Assembly (NCBI RefSeq): GCF_000020965.1
Contig: NC_011297.1
Span: forward strand, 434,001-498,000
Origin: Dictyoglomus thermophilum H-6-12
GTDB lineage: Bacteria > Dictyoglomota > Dictyoglomia > Dictyoglomales > Dictyoglomaceae
Direction of reading: 5' to 3'
Length of the DNA: 64,000 bases
Within the stretch, counting starts at the first letter, position 1; each line of letters begins with the position of its first letter. The notes below the pieces were generated by a model. The model ran no database searches. It saw only the letters and a program-made list of their open reading frames with translations, and was not told where the DNA came from. The translations under genes and the position numbers were made by a program. Of this stretch, positions 15,448 to 25,009 are shown in pieces.

Positions 15448-16035
15448 ATGGAGATATTAAGATATTTTTTAATATTAATTATTTTTTTAATTCTTATTCA
15501 AGTTGCTTTTGGAAATATGATACCAGTAGTTGAAAACAGGAGTATAGTAATTGCAAAGGTTAAGGCAATTGTTCATAAGGAGTTTCCATTTTCAGAGATT
15601 GTGGTTGAGGTTGTGAGAAGTGAGAGTGTAGAAGGTTTTAAAAATTTTGCAAAAGTTGGGGATATAATACCTCTCTATCCTTTGTCATTAAATGCTAATT
15701 TAGAAAATGTTGATGATTTTAGGAAAAAAGTTCTTTATACCTGCTACTTTTTAAAACCTGGAGATTTGGTAAAGGCAGAGATTGAATTTGTGGGAGATGA
15801 AGCAAAAAGGGGTTGGGTTATAAGAGATATTGAAAGAGTTATTGAGGTAAATGAGGGATTATTGAAAGATGTAATTTATAGTTTTTTGAAGGCAAAGGGT
15901 TTTATAAAAGACAAGGAGGAGTTGAAGTATGAGGTAGTTAAAGATGGTGAAAATTATAGGGTGGAAATAATATTAGACAATAAAAAACTCACTATAATTC
16001 TTGATAAAAGTTATGTTATTTTAAATTATTTTTAG
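15448..16035 (+). CDS. Uncharacterised exported protein
   Basis: 195 residues with an N-terminal signal peptide (about 1-22, AFG-N). I do not recognise the family. The first half (VENRSIVIAKVKAIVHKEFP, then IVVEVVRSESVEGF) has the beta-rich look of an OB/TIMP-like domain in which a soluble factor is buffered, but this is only an impression. The second half (about 135-195) is a small alpha/beta unit ending in YEVVKDGENYRVEIILDNKK. It is divergent from the protease operon, and its last 20 bp overlap the convergent DUF89 gene. Confidence 0.55.
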   Translation: MEILRYFLILIIFLILIQVAFGNMIPVVENRSIVIAKVKAIVHKEFPFSEIVVEVVRSESVEGFKNFAKVGDIIPLYPLSLNANLENVDDFRKKVLYTCYFLKPGDLVKAEIEFVGDEAKRGWVIRDIERVIEVNEGLLKDVIYSFLKAKGFIKDKEELKYEVVKDGENYRVEIILDNKKLTIILDKSYVILNYF

Positions 16036-16888
16036 CCTTTTCGTATAAGAATACCAAATCTCCTTCTTTTACTCCTAAGTTTTCTGCTACTACCTCGCAC
16101 TTTGCTTTAAGGAGGAAAAAGATATTATAGCCTCTTCCTTCTAAACTTTCATAATTTGCTTGTCCTTTTGATATTATAAGTTTGGCATTGTTGAAGACTT
16201 CTTTATACTCTTCTCCCCCAAGTTCTGGGGGTTTTCCTACTGAGCCTGAGCCAGTAGTGATAATCTTTGCATATTTGTTTAGTGCTACTTCAATGGCATC
16301 TTCCATGAGGGCATCATTAATTATAGGATATTCATTAACTACAGCTATTATTTTCTTCTCTTTAGAAAGTTCCTCTATTAATATTCTGTCAAATACTATT
16401 TCTCCAGCGTTATCCAAAAGATATAGAATCTCATTGGTTTTCGATAATTCATTCTTAAAGTAAAAATAATGATCAATGGCAAGGGGAATATTTATGATCT
16501 CTTTAATATATTCGCCAAGATTGAGTTTTGAAATATTCAAGATGCCAAGATCTATAACGTTTCCTGCTATGGCCACTTTTACTGCTGTATAGAGGGGGTC
16601 CTGAGAACTATCTACTATATTTTTCAGGGCTTCGTAAAGTTTTAATCCTTGTTGATTGTAATACTTTTTTTCTTCAAAGTATGGATCCGTTGAGCCTGAG
16701 AGCTCATATATCTTTTTAAAAATTAAATATGTATTGTAGGAGGGTGTGTCCTCAGGAGAAAAATTCTCTAAATCTTTTGCTATCGCCTTAATTATCTCTA
16801 TCTTTTTTTCATTAGGTATATTTATTCTTTTTAAGGCAGATTCTGCTTGTCTAAAAAAACAGGTAAAGCATTCCCATCTCGTCTTCAT
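16016..16888 (-). CDS. DUF89/ARMT1-like metal-dependent phosphatase
   Basis: 290 residues. The start MKTRWECFTCFFRQ carries the C-x-x-C pair seen in subfamily I of DUF89 proteins. The conserved metal and substrate motifs are present: YLLDNAGEIVFD, VVNEYPIINDAL and LIISKGQANYES. Characterised members are damage-control phosphatases acting on sugar phosphates and related metabolites. Which phosphometabolite this one clears is unknown. It is transcribed toward the 195-aa gene and overlaps its 3' end by 20 bp. Confidence 0.85.
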   Translation of the reverse strand: MKTRWECFTCFFRQAESALKRINIPNEKKIEIIKAIAKDLENFSPEDTPSYNTYLIFKKIYELSGSTDPYFEEKKYYNQQGLKLYEALKNIVDSSQDPLYTAVKVAIAGNVIDLGILNISKLNLGEYIKEIINIPLAIDHYFYFKNELSKTNEILYLLDNAGEIVFDRILIEELSKEKKIIAVVNEYPIINDALMEDAIEVALNKYAKIITTGSGSVGKPPELGGEEYKEVFNNAKLIISKGQANYESLEGRGYNIFFLLKAKCEVVAENLGVKEGDLVFLYEKAKNNLK

Positions 16889-16945: not shown

Positions 16946-18145
16946 TTAATTTAGGCTTTTTCTAAGATGATGATATAATTCTAAGGACTTTTGAAAGAGA
17001 TTGCTGAAATCTTCAAAATTTCTTATAGAAGATTGGGATTCTCTTAAGTTTCCATGGACAGCAGAATTTCTTATTTTCTCAAGGTTATTAAAGGTCTCTC
17101 TTGTCCATTCCTCGGTGAGGACTTTGCTATATACTTCCCTCGCTTTTTCTCTTCTATTTATTATGTTAGATAGATCTCTATAGCCTGCCTTCTTCAGAAT
17201 AATTATGGTTAGAGCTTCATAAAGTAAGATAAGGCTTTTCAAATATTGCTTCTTTTTGAAAAAGAATTTTGCTCTCTCCACCATTCGGTCTTCTAAGTAT
17301 CTTTCTCTGCAAAGAGGTATAAGGTCTTCTACCAAGGCTTTTGCAGGTACTTTTTTGTGTTTTTCTTTTATACTTTCTAATTCCTCTATTATTTTTTCTA
17401 ATTCCTCTCTTGGCCTTTCGTTCATCTCGATGGAGAAATATACATCTTCTCTTCTGTTTAAGCCTAAATTTTTTAGGAGCTCAGGGAAGTAGCCAGAATT
17501 TTTATAGAGCTCAAAGGCTGTGGAGAGTTGAAAAATTTCATTTATATGATCAATTTCTAAAACAGGAGCGTTATCTTGGCTCATTTCGAGAGCACCGTAG
17601 TATATTTTGAGCTCTTTTATGTTCTTAAAGTTTTTTACGTACATAATGGAGAAGCTTAAAATTAAAGGTAAATATCTGTAACCATGGGTTATATCCAGGA
17701 TAATTTTTAAGTCGTCATTTTCAGGTAAATTTTCCAATAGAAATTCTGAGAAAAATTTGTAGTCAAGAGGATCAATTAGGATGAGTTTTATACCTGGAAT
17801 CTCCGATGATAAGGCCTCTTCCCAATTTTTCAAAAGATCTCCTTTAATACCTATATTTTCTGCCTCATATATCTCATAAGCGAGGTCTTGAAATTTAGAC
17901 ATTTTTTGTTCATCTAAAGCGTAGATTATTTCAGACCAAGAAGAGGTAGAGGTTCCAAATATATACCAGTAATTAATCTTTTCTTTTTGGGAGATATATT
18001 TCCATAAGGCAGATCCGAAAAATCCAGTTTCAAAAATTTCACCAGTTTTAAATCTATAACTAGTCCTTTTATATCCTTGCGATATATTTTCCAATACTTT
18101 TCCTCTTCCAATTAAGGATAACAAAATGTTTTTTACTTCCCCCAT
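16946..18145 (-). CDS. csx1: Csx1/TM1812-family CARF-HEPN ribonuclease (orphan CRISPR accessory)
   Basis: 399 residues. The N-terminal Rossmann-like CARF domain starts at about 5 (ILLSLIGRGK) and carries LDITHGYRYLP at 150-160, the D-x-T-H-G motif of the Csx1/Csx2 (TM1812) family. The C-terminal helical HEPN domain contains R359-N-S-A-V-H364, matching the R-x4-6-H ribonuclease motif. Family members bind cyclic oligoadenylate made by type III CRISPR complexes and then cut RNA. No cas gene and no repeat array is visible in the window, so it stands alone between a phosphatase and the folate operon. Both key motifs are intact, which argues that it still works. Confidence 0.88.
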   Translation of the reverse strand: MGEVKNILLSLIGRGKVLENISQGYKRTSYRFKTGEIFETGFFGSALWKYISQKEKINYWYIFGTSTSSWSEIIYALDEQKMSKFQDLAYEIYEAENIGIKGDLLKNWEEALSSEIPGIKLILIDPLDYKFFSEFLLENLPENDDLKIILDITHGYRYLPLILSFSIMYVKNFKNIKELKIYYGALEMSQDNAPVLEIDHINEIFQLSTAFELYKNSGYFPELLKNLGLNRREDVYFSIEMNERPREELEKIIEELESIKEKHKKVPAKALVEDLIPLCRERYLEDRMVERAKFFFKKKQYLKSLILLYEALTIIILKKAGYRDLSNIINRREKAREVYSKVLTEEWTRETFNNLEKIRNSAVHGNLRESQSSIRNFEDFSNLFQKSLELYHHLRKSLN

Positions 18146-18256
18146 AATCCAAAAGCATCATTTCAAATTTAAGTTAAGGATGATATATCATAAAAAAGCA
18201 AAGGTGTAAACATACTGCTATTGTTAGTATTTCTTTAGATTTTTTATCTTTTTAAA

Positions 18257-18265
18257 TGTTATAAT
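18257..18265 (+). promoter_or_regulatory. Extended -10 of the folate operon
   Basis: TGTTATAAT is a perfect extended -10, 28 bp before the queD-like ATG at 18294, in the gap that also holds the start of the divergent csx1 gene. Confidence 0.65.
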
Positions 18266-18293
18266 CTACAAAAAATTGAGGAGAGAGTAAAAG

Positions 18294-21850: not shown

Positions 21851-24800
21851 ATGGATTCTGTGTTGGAAAATTTAAATTATATTGAAGAAGTCTTAAAGAA
21901 GGAACCCATAGTCTACTTGAACCTTCCTACTGGAAGTGGAAGAACTTATTTATTGAAATCTTTCTTTGAAAGAAATAAATCCTCTTCTCTTTTTACCCAC
22001 TATGCATCTCATCGAACTCCTGTTGGTGAGTTTTTTATAACACTTCTTTCCCTAATAGATAAGAACTCTTTTTTAAAAGAGAAAGGAGATATTGTTGGCC
22101 CTATATTGAGAAGATATATTCATCCAAGATTTTTATCTCATCTGGAAAAGTACAAGGCTGAAGAAGTAATATCCTTGGATGTAGAGGTAGCTCAAATAGC
22201 TGATATTGCCTCTTTTATTCTTGAGAAAAGAAAGATTAAATATTGGATTTTTGATAATTGGCAAGAATTTTTGTACTATGGCGATGTTTTTAAAGAGCTA
22301 ATACCTTATTTGAGTAAAAAATATAATATGGCATTTGTTATCACTGGAAAGGATTTTAATATGGAATCTTATGAGATAAAAATAGATGATCTCTTAGTTC
22401 CTCTTAATGTAGATACCACTATAAAAGAGATGGAGAAAGCCTTTAATTTAGATAATAAAGAAGCAGTAAGGCTTTTTGAGATGAGCAATGGAAATTGGAA
22501 CAATGCCATAGTGATATATAAGAATGATTTTAAGTCTCTTTGGGATATTGTGTGGGAAAAAATTAATTCTTTATCAGAAAATGAGAAAAAGGCTCTATAT
22601 ACACTTACTTTTGTGGGTAAAACTTTTTCTTCCACTACTGTAAAGGCAGTGAAAGAGCTTTATGGTCCTTTAAAGTTTATTAGGGATTTTGTTGACTCTA
22701 AATTAATGAGATGGGAGTATCCTCTTTGGAGGTTTGTGTCTGAAGATGTTTTGAATTATGTGAGAGAAAGTATGCCTTATAATTTTTCTCAATTAAAAGA
22801 AGAATTTGTAAAAAAGCTTTCGTCCTTTAATTATTCAGACATATGGGGAAGAGTAGCGTTATTATCAGAAGAGGATGAGAAATATTGGAAATATGCCAAA
22901 ATAAAAGAGTTTAGATCTTCTTATAATATTCAAAGGAAAATGGAGATTTTAGAAGAAATTGTTGAAAAGGGCAAGGATGATGGGAATATCTATAAGCGAA
23001 GACTAATAAATCTTCTCATAGATTTTCAGAAATTTAATAAAGCTATTAATATAATTGAGTTTATCGAAGATAAAAACTTGCTTGATCTTGCCAATAAAGT
23101 TAGGTGCTTATCATATCTTGGTAAGTATGAAGAGGCGGAGAAGTTAATAGAGGAAATTATTGACAGTTTAGAGATGGATTATAATCTTCCTCAAATTCTT
23201 TCAAGGATAGTTAGTTATCATTTTTTGACTAAAAAGGTTACTGATGCGCTATTCTTATTAAATAAATATCTGGAAGACATATTACGACTGACTTCTTCTC
23301 CTAAATACCTGGCCAATTTTTATAACGCCTTAGGTCTTCTAAATCTTATTGATGGTAAATTTGAAAAAGCAATTTCTGTATTTGAAAATGGACTTGTTTT
23401 GGCAGAAAAATCTGGAGATAAGGTAGTTTTACATAAATTACTTAATAATCTCGGAGATCTAAGAAATTATCTCTATGGTCCTAAGAGTGCTGTAATAATT
23501 AATCAAAGAGCCTACGATATATCCAAATCTCTTTCAAAGAATTTGATGGTTATAAGTCTTGGAAATTTAATTAAAAGCAAGATGCAATATTCTAATCTAA
23601 AAGAAGTAGAGGATTTGTTACTTGAGTTGGAGAGGCTGGTATCTGAAATAGAATTAGAGTATTTCCTTTATTCGGGATATAGGAGGTTGGCAATTGCATA
23701 TCTTAATTATGGTAAAAGGGAGGAATTGGATAAAGTTATTAAGAAATTAGAAGATTTAAAGACCATTTCAGAGAGTAAGATTTTGGTGCGAATTTTAAGA
23801 AGCTTTTTTGGAGAAATTGAAATAACAGAAGAGGAAGTATTAGAAACTAAAGAAGAGCAGATAATGACTCTCTATATGAAATTAGTGGCTGAGAAAGGTT
23901 TAAGAATCTCCAAATCTTTGAGAGATTATCCAACCGATTATCCAATACATAATTTTTTAAAGGGTTATATTTTGGGAGAAAGCTTCTTTAATCTTATCTC
24001 TTACATAGATTTGATGCTGGAAAGATGGGAGTTTTTAGATGCTTTTTATTCCTATAAACTTTTAATGAAAAACCTTGAAAGAGATAAAAACTTGAAAGTG
24101 TTTGTTCCATACATAAAACTTGAGGTTGTGGGGCTTGCTATTCTTTTAGGTCTTGAAAAGGAATTGGAGGATCAGTTAAAGGAGATCTCTTTAGATTATA
24201 CAGGATTGATTAAAGAGCATTCGAAGATAAAGGCTTTGGAGGATTATGTAGGAAAGGCTATCATGGATTCCGAAACTGAAGAGGAGGCTATGGAACTTAT
24301 ATATAGGGTTATTTCTGATTTTATAGATAACTTTTTAGTGGTGTTAAGGATTGGAGATAGAACCTTGAAAAGGGGTAATGAACTTATTGCTACTAACAAA
24401 TTCAGATTTTTCTATAAAAAGCCTCCATTTTCAGTAAGTGTTTACTCTCTTAAAAATTTGTCTCCCTCTTTATTTTTTGTTATAAGGAATCTTCTTAAGA
24501 GTTTTATTGTTTTCTGGGAAAGAAAGTATGGTATATTTGATCCTTTGACAGGGTTATTTAATAGATCTTATGGAGAGAGAAGACTTGAAGAGGCCTTTTT
24601 AGATTTTGTACGTGAAAATGAAGACTTTAGTATTATCTTTATAGATATAGATGGATTTAAGAAGATTAATGATACTTTGGGACATTCTTATGGAGATTAT
24701 GTATTAAAAGAGATTGCAACTGCAATTAGGAACTCTATAAGACAAAGTGATTCTGCCGTAAGGTGGGGTGGTGATGAATTCTTAATTCTTTTGAGAAGGG

Positions 24801-25009
24801 CAGACTATAATGAGGCAATGAAAGTGGTAAATAGAATAAAAGATAGGATAGAAAGTGTTAGTAAAGGTGAGATAAGAATTAGTTATGGTATTGAGACAAC
24901 TTCTAAAGAAACGTCTTCTTATAGGGAGCTTATAGATAGGGCAGATGTAAAGATGTATGCTCATAAGTTTAGAAAATTAAAGGATTTAGAGAATAGCAAA
25001 AAAGAATAA
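21851..25009 (+). CDS. NTPase-TPR-GGDEF regulatory protein (putative diguanylate cyclase)
   Basis: 1052 residues. An N-terminal NTPase domain with a P-loop-like LPTGSGRTYLL at 25-35 and a Walker B-like YWIFDNWQEF is followed by helical repeats of TPR type over about 350-720, e.g. YNALGLLNLIDGKFEKAISV. A linker domain comes next, then a C-terminal GGDEF domain from about 890 with intact WGGDEF at 972-977 and an upstream R-Q-S-D that fits the inhibitory I-site. The layout resembles MalT-type STAND regulators with diguanylate cyclase output instead of a DNA-binding head. The usual P-loop Lys is Arg. The predicted product is c-di-GMP under control of an unknown ligand. No transmembrane segment is seen. 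Confidence 0.85.
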   Translation: MDSVLENLNYIEEVLKKEPIVYLNLPTGSGRTYLLKSFFERNKSSSLFTHYASHRTPVGEFFITLLSLIDKNSFLKEKGDIVGPILRRYIHPRFLSHLEKYKAEEVISLDVEVAQIADIASFILEKRKIKYWIFDNWQEFLYYGDVFKELIPYLSKKYNMAFVITGKDFNMESYEIKIDDLLVPLNVDTTIKEMEKAFNLDNKEAVRLFEMSNGNWNNAIVIYKNDFKSLWDIVWEKINSLSENEKKALYTLTFVGKTFSSTTVKAVKELYGPLKFIRDFVDSKLMRWEYPLWRFVSEDVLNYVRESMPYNFSQLKEEFVKKLSSFNYSDIWGRVALLSEEDEKYWKYAKIKEFRSSYNIQRKMEILEEIVEKGKDDGNIYKRRLINLLIDFQKFNKAINIIEFIEDKNLLDLANKVRCLSYLGKYEEAEKLIEEIIDSLEMDYNLPQILSRIVSYHFLTKKVTDALFLLNKYLEDILRLTSSPKYLANFYNALGLLNLIDGKFEKAISVFENGLVLAEKSGDKVVLHKLLNNLGDLRNYLYGPKSAVIINQRAYDISKSLSKNLMVISLGNLIKSKMQYSNLKEVEDLLLELERLVSEIELEYFLYSGYRRLAIAYLNYGKREELDKVIKKLEDLKTISESKILVRILRSFFGEIEITEEEVLETKEEQIMTLYMKLVAEKGLRISKSLRDYPTDYPIHNFLKGYILGESFFNLISYIDLMLERWEFLDAFYSYKLLMKNLERDKNLKVFVPYIKLEVVGLAILLGLEKELEDQLKEISLDYTGLIKEHSKIKALEDYVGKAIMDSETEEEAMELIYRVISDFIDNFLVVLRIGDRTLKRGNELIATNKFRFFYKKPPFSVSVYSLKNLSPSLFFVIRNLLKSFIVFWERKYGIFDPLTGLFNRSYGERRLEEAFLDFVRENEDFSIIFIDIDGFKKINDTLGHSYGDYVLKEIATAIRNSIRQSDSAVRWGGDEFLILLRRADYNEAMKVVNRIKDRIESVSKGEIRISYGIETTSKETSSYRELIDRADVKMYAHKFRKLKDLENSKKE

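Follow-up and report, generated by a model that had tools for sequence, protein, structure and literature searches.

How does a gene for a CRISPR-type ribonuclease come to stand beside folate genes, and is its product still of use there? The window analysed here is a stretch of 64 kb (C1:434001-498000 of the closed chromosome of Dictyoglomus thermophilum, 1,959,987 bases), in which an earlier note had singled out csx1 as an orphan that abuts a folate operon and a DUF89 phosphatase; these neighbours are as it described them. The features concerned are listed below in window coordinates; the names queD, folE2, folP and folK are our own reading of the sequences.

16016..16888, minus strand: ARMT1-like (DUF89) damage-control phosphatase gene, the conserved left neighbour, 92% identical to that of the sister species
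16946..18145, minus strand: csx1, coding for a TM1812-type CARF-HEPN ribonuclease of the CARF2 clade, 399 aa; Dicth_0458 by orthology
17540..18139, minus strand: CARF domain (Rossmann-like cyclic oligoadenylate sensor), residues 3-202, from the AlphaFold2 model and structural alignment to cA4-bound CARF proteins
17681..17695, minus strand: DITHG motif of the CARF domain, D151-G155 (residues 151-155), from sequence and alignment
16949..17308, minus strand: HEPN ribonuclease domain, about residues 280-399, from structural alignment
17054..17071, minus strand: HEPN catalytic motif R359-N-S-A-V-H364 (RNSAVH), from sequence and alignment
18146..18293, no strand: csx1-queD junction, 148 bp, from comparison with the sister genome
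18294..21067, plus strand: queD-folE2-folP-folK operon, the conserved right neighbour, divergent from csx1 and 82-92% identical to that of the sister species

The csx1 reading frame is real, running from an ATG through to a stop codon. Its product matches the PADLOC profile CARF2--CARF_HEPN (PDLC01827) over the full length (E = 3.3e-176) and scores 90 bits against TIGR02221 (cas_TM1812; cut-off 76.25). The Pfam model Csx1_CARF gave 23.0 in hmmscan, just short of its cut-off of 24.7, and 25.3, over the cut-off, in the genome search, where the frame included neighbouring sequence. Both motifs named in the earlier note are kept, the DxTHG of the CARF domain as DITHG and the R-x4-H of the HEPN domain as RNSAVH at 359-364, the latter being the sole R-x4-H in the protein. 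D151, T153 and H154 as well as R359, N360 and H364 are invariant in all eight aligned homologues (two interrupted copies, described below for G136 and G211, were excluded). With a curated-profile score over the cut-off, a CARF fold bearing DxTHG and a HEPN domain bearing R-x4-6-H, the protein is by its sequence an ordinary Csx1-type CARF-HEPN RNase of a known family, and RNase activity is predicted for it.

An AlphaFold2 model of the product was built from the eight homologues (mean pLDDT 87.6, pTM 0.76); it replaced a model from three sequences that was too weak (pLDDT 70.3), and whose Foldseek matches already included Csx1/Csm6. The best whole-length structural match is the cA4-bound Csx1-Crn2 of Marinitoga (PDB entry 8y7g; Z 15.3, rmsd 5.5 over 356 residues), aligned across residues 4-399 with 21% identity. 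The profile of the eight homologues also retrieves this protein from the PDB by sequence (E = 7.4e-8); it differs in having a fused Crn2 ring nuclease, which the D. thermophilum protein lacks. Csx1 of Sulfolobus islandicus (PDB entry 6qzt; Z 14.2, rmsd 5.0 over 333 residues) is likewise a CARF-HEPN protein and aligns over residues 5-399, with an identity of just 13%. Many CARF proteins with cA4 bound align to model residues 3-202; the C-terminal part aligns to HEPN structures (2q00 to residues 280-399, the HEPN protein 1o3u to 283-399) and, from residue 202 to 399, to the CARF-truncated Csx1-Crn2 8y7f. As cA6-bound Csm6 proteins (8pe3 and 6tug) are also among the matches, the shared fold does not tell which ring the csx1 product binds.

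The absence of CRISPR neighbours from the window was borne out. Scans for CRISPR-like repeats found none within the 64 kb, the repeat that D. thermophilum itself uses has zero copies there, and tblastn with reference csm, csx3 and type I-B proteins returned csx1 as the sole match. The 123 spacers of the host arrays gave merely short partial matches of 14-20 bases to the window, and Rfam at gathering thresholds gave nothing in it. PADLOC reported nothing for the DUF89 and creatininase products and only weak TPR-type matches for a third protein, a 1052-residue product encoded at window 21851-25009 (plus strand) with TPR-like repeats and a C-terminal GGDEF domain (E = 1.9e-38), which looks like a regulatory diguanylate cyclase.

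A linked function for csx1 and DUF89, which lies 57 bp downstream on the same strand and is kept next to csx1 in the sister, was considered and rejected: DUF89 homologues occur in two genomes (G005 and G006) in which no csx1 was detected, so the neighbourhood alone carries no function. Carriage of csx1 by a phage or plasmid was also rejected, as tblastn gave no match among plasmids (E <= 1e-10) or phages (E <= 1e-5); viral contigs scanned by alignment contained no relative.

The origin of the arrangement becomes clearer in the sister species, D. turgidum DSM 6724 (G003; 1,855,560 bases), where the same flanks enclose the following.

605400-606272, minus strand: DUF89 gene
606329-607519, minus strand: csx1 (Dtur_0606)
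607516-608775, minus strand: csm6, with csm5, csm4, csm3, csm2 and cas10 next in order
614566-614895, minus strand: csx3
615153-617250: CRISPR array of 32 copies
617729-620502, plus strand: folate operon
620788-628793, minus strand: type I-B cas block, between folK and the creatininase gene
from 628943, plus strand: creatininase gene

The D. turgidum orthologue shares 72% identity and the DUF89 and folate flanks with Dicth_0458; it differs in closing a csm operon (csx3-cas10-csm2-csm3-csm4-csm5-csm6-csx1), beside an array, and overlaps csm6 by 4 bp. In D. turgidum csx1 and queD are 10,209 bp apart, with csm6, csm5, csm4, csm3, csm2, cas10, csx3 and the array between them; in D. thermophilum this interval is 148 bp, and the gap between folK and the creatininase gene is about 43 bp as against about 8.4 kb. 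With the flanks the same and both intervals collapsed, csx1 is the sole gene of the sister's CRISPR block left at the site. The term 'orphan' used in the earlier note is thus apt for the window and fails for the sister. Table 6 of a published comparison gives Dicth_0458 as the counterpart of Dtur_0606 (TM1812 family) and Dicth_0181-0187 as those of the csm genes (PMC5167688), so that Dicth_0458 is already CRISPR-associated in print; the listing there carries no comment on its displacement. A literature search returned the locus tags in that paper only, and no paper pairing Dictyoglomus thermophilum with Csx1.

That the orthologue closes a csm operon with these same flanks on either side, an arrangement known at this site from one sister genome, makes it probable that the orphan csx1 was once the tail of a type III-A operon and has been left stranded, kept as a predicted cA4-activated RNase that a remote Csm complex (described below) would serve. 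The ancestor of D. thermophilum would have had the full operon at the site and lost everything except csx1, which would have been retained because it still functions. The opposite course, with csx1 alone beside DUF89 ancestrally and the csm operon and array gained later by the sister between csx1 and queD, would cost the same, two insertions (csm with array, and the type I-B block) in place of two deletions in D. thermophilum. It would also agree with the lack of a csm6 remnant upstream of csx1 in the window (best blastn E 0.011; tblastn found none either). We nevertheless regard it as unlikely, because in the sister csm6 and csx1 run in the same direction with their 4 bp overlap, as in an operon that has grown together, and because csx1 lies within the csm cluster in three of the seven clostridial-type genomes considered below.

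The search proposed in the earlier note, for arrays and a Cas10 with an intact GGDD motif, found both on the same chromosome. About 246 kb from csx1, at C1:197974-205308, is a type III-A operon that looks intact; it comprises csx3, cas10, csm2, csm3, csm4, csm5 and a gene for a 427-residue CARF-HEPN protein called csm6; the names are those of PADLOC except for csm2, which takes its name from its similarity to the gene of the sister, its position and Dicth_0183. Its Cas10a has the GGDD motif (PDLC00916, E = 1.2e-210). The Cas10 palm profile has a second match, at 396438, in a 300-residue ORF whose product we take for an ordinary GGDEF protein. The 30-base CRISPR repeat has 127 copies on the chromosome (up to three mismatches); its arrays occupy roughly 46.3-50.3 kb and 178.5-182.9 kb, and the region at 173-178 kb holds matches to the sister's type I-B cas5, cas3, cas4 and cas1. 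Cas10 with GGDD, Csm2-5 and arrays, the partners of a type III-A accessory, are therefore all in the genome of csx1; csx1 is encoded in the cas10 operon in D. turgidum but not in D. thermophilum, where it shares the full-length profile match and the CARF DxTHG and HEPN R-x4-H motifs of TM1812-type Csx1 proteins (TIGR02221; PDLC01827) and differs from that family in standing 246 kb from cas10. A view of 64 kb is a poor basis for calling a gene an orphan. The earlier note had held that the protein would be an ordinary accessory if a type III cas operon in another part of the genome had a Csx1 of its own and the protein depended on that operon fully; the first half of this applies, in that the csm6 product of the remote operon is a CARF-HEPN protein with an RNFNAH HEPN motif.

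The remote operon is probably not the sister's operon relocated. Between D. thermophilum and D. turgidum the DUF89 and folate genes are 82-92% identical and csx1 is 72% identical, while csx3, cas10 and the csm genes are just 47-66% identical; the D. thermophilum csm genes are nearer to those of G006, which belongs to another genus of the family (58-77%; folE2 of G004 is missing from the gene comparison). A concatenated tree of six genes (csx3, cas10, csm2, csm3, csm4 and csm6) from four genomes prefers the split of D. thermophilum (G000) and G006 from D. turgidum (G003) and G004, and the AU test excludes both alternative topologies, grouping by genus among them (p 3e-77 and 4e-56), at log-likelihood differences near 98. 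The tree omits csm5, which in G004 is broken into two overlapping frames; it also omits G001 and G005, whose Cas10 loci are of a different kind, and G002, in which no Cas10 locus was found. An alcohol dehydrogenase gene follows csm6 in both G006 and D. thermophilum, its identity being 77.9% between these two as against 75.9% between D. thermophilum and D. turgidum; in G004 there is no csx1 in the 487 bp between csm6 and the contig end. The tree split, the low csm identity and the G006-like neighbour together suggest that the remote operon (198-205 kb) belongs to another lineage, which, on a tree of only four genomes, may have come either by transfer or by differential loss from an older pair of operons. 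The type I-B genes look to follow a pattern like that of the csm operon (cas3, cas5 and cas4 36-45% identical between the two species, but cas1 80%).

Separation of csx1 from its complex seems to recur in this csx1 family, to judge by its variable placement relative to csm and Cas10 among seven other genomes. These came from a survey within another phylum, that of G007 (a Tissierellia MAG), which covered 398 genomes taken from a larger group; seven had a homologue at E <= 1e-50, weaker homologues being uncounted. Three of the seven have csx1 inside a csm gene cluster (G159, G308 and G136, the gene in G136 being interrupted by one internal stop), and three more have it on the same contig as, and 20-30 kb from, the nearest Cas10 match (G211, G186 and G330), that of G211 adjoining a type I-B operon; in G007 it is beside an array and cas10 is on another contig. 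G211 also has a degenerate second csx1 with four internal stops (C1:60751-61572), about 6 kb from Cas10, in addition to the intact copy at 93096 by the type I-B operon. The csm clusters of both G007 and G136 encode further Csx1-like proteins with RNDINH, giving several CARF-HEPN effectors per genome.

Cas10 scored over the cut-off in all seven homologue-bearing genomes, a count that comes without a base rate from the 398. Together with the Cas10 of D. thermophilum itself, this bears on a suggestion of the earlier note that another cyclase might activate the protein, that is, that the csx1 product has been rewired to a non-CRISPR cyclase or other ligand outside type III immunity. A diguanylate cyclase-type GGDEF protein does lie within the window (21851-25009), but its TPR-GGDEF architecture looks regulatory and GGDEF proteins typically make c-di-GMP. 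A CBASS or other non-CRISPR cyclase effector would have a cognate cyclase gene adjacent, and the neighbours of csx1 are DUF89 and folate genes with no such gene among them. The suggestion found no support among the neighbouring genes, and we consider such rewiring very improbable.

Is the stranded gene still alive? Between the two Dictyoglomus species csx1 has an NG86 dN/dS of 0.076, which points to purifying selection and is similar to the values of the housekeeping neighbours where these could be computed (0.035-0.163; dS was incomputable for DUF89, csm4 and cas10), but its dS of 2.08 is near saturation, so the ratio is rough. With the Tissierellia homologue as outgroup, the stranded copy has 22 unique changes and the operon copy 23. 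Relative-rate tests in a larger alignment with six outgroup sequences, which are not independent of one another, gave chi2 values of 0 to 3.46, none above 3.84; some of the counts tilt towards more change in the stranded copy, but the most lopsided, 23 changes there against 12 in the operon copy (chi2 3.46), is not significant. The six outgroup sequences agree with one another at 113 columns, and departures from them there number 33 in the stranded copy and 30 in the operon copy. The stranded csx1 is thus under purifying selection without significant acceleration. Its translation may be weak, as the 148 bp junction yielded no promoter-like site on the strand of csx1 and the ATG sits three codons upstream of the D. 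turgidum start. These two features, and the degenerate copy in G211 with its four internal stops, would suit a decaying relic that is unexpressed or has ceased to bind cyclic oligoadenylate; the full-length frame, the intact catalytic and CARF motif residues, the low dN/dS and the lack of a significant rate increase all argue against such decay, which we think improbable, slightly more so than late arrival of the operon.

For a stranded but functional tail, activation in trans is the likely mode. The protein is of a known kind and has an informative history. The earlier note had proposed cyclic oligoadenylates from a distant type III complex, and this is supported as far as sequence goes, by the GGDD of the remote Cas10 and by a Csx3 of the cA4 family. 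The remote Csx3 matches that of Archaeoglobus fulgidus (E = 1.4e-29) and conserves the residues placed at A. fulgidus H60, D69 and H80 (the numbering is our count from the alignment). AfCsx3 is reported to be cA4-specific and its presence is taken to imply a cA4 system (PMC7371418); it is from this Csx3 that cA4, rather than another ring, is proposed here. Csx1 is itself defined as cA4-activated in a survey in which it occurs with other effectors in 127 loci and alone in 284, and which proposes, on statistical grounds, signalling between loci of one genome (PMC11229360). The csx1 product would then most likely be a cA4-activated RNase whose signal now comes in trans from a non-cognate Cas10. 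On binding phage RNA the remote Csm complex would have its Cas10 make cA4, as family knowledge suggests; cA4 would bind the CARF dimer of Csx1, the HEPN dimer would cleave RNA without sequence specificity, and the ring nuclease Csx3, perhaps with Csx1 too, would remove cA4 so that cleavage ends. Since cA4 diffuses, linkage of csx1 to cas10 would be unnecessary, and Csx1 and the Csm6-like protein of the operon may answer to the same ring.

The fuller account, that a type III effector has outlived its own complex, with a D. turgidum-type csm operon lost here, a csm operon of another lineage now signalling and csx1 kept because cA4 is a common currency, stands at about an even chance in our estimate. 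It would illustrate a route to seemingly orphaned defence genes, in which the effector stays after its complex has been lost or replaced. If a non-cognate Cas10 does activate Csx1 in trans, cA4 effectors would be exchangeable parts that are selected independently of the operon, and the species pair would be a natural case of the inter-locus signalling proposed in PMC11229360.

The arrays themselves show some minor features. Those of D. turgidum start at 470870 and 615153; the first is given as 470870-474424 and the second as ending at 617311 in PMC5167688. A stretch of the D. thermophilum chromosome (C1:194294-194411) has a 73% match to sequences beside both of these arrays (G003:617315-617433 and 474428-474546) and appears leader-like, with no repeat array adjoining it in D. 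thermophilum. Within one of the D. thermophilum arrays, a three-spacer block is repeated in tandem (C1:182429-182810).
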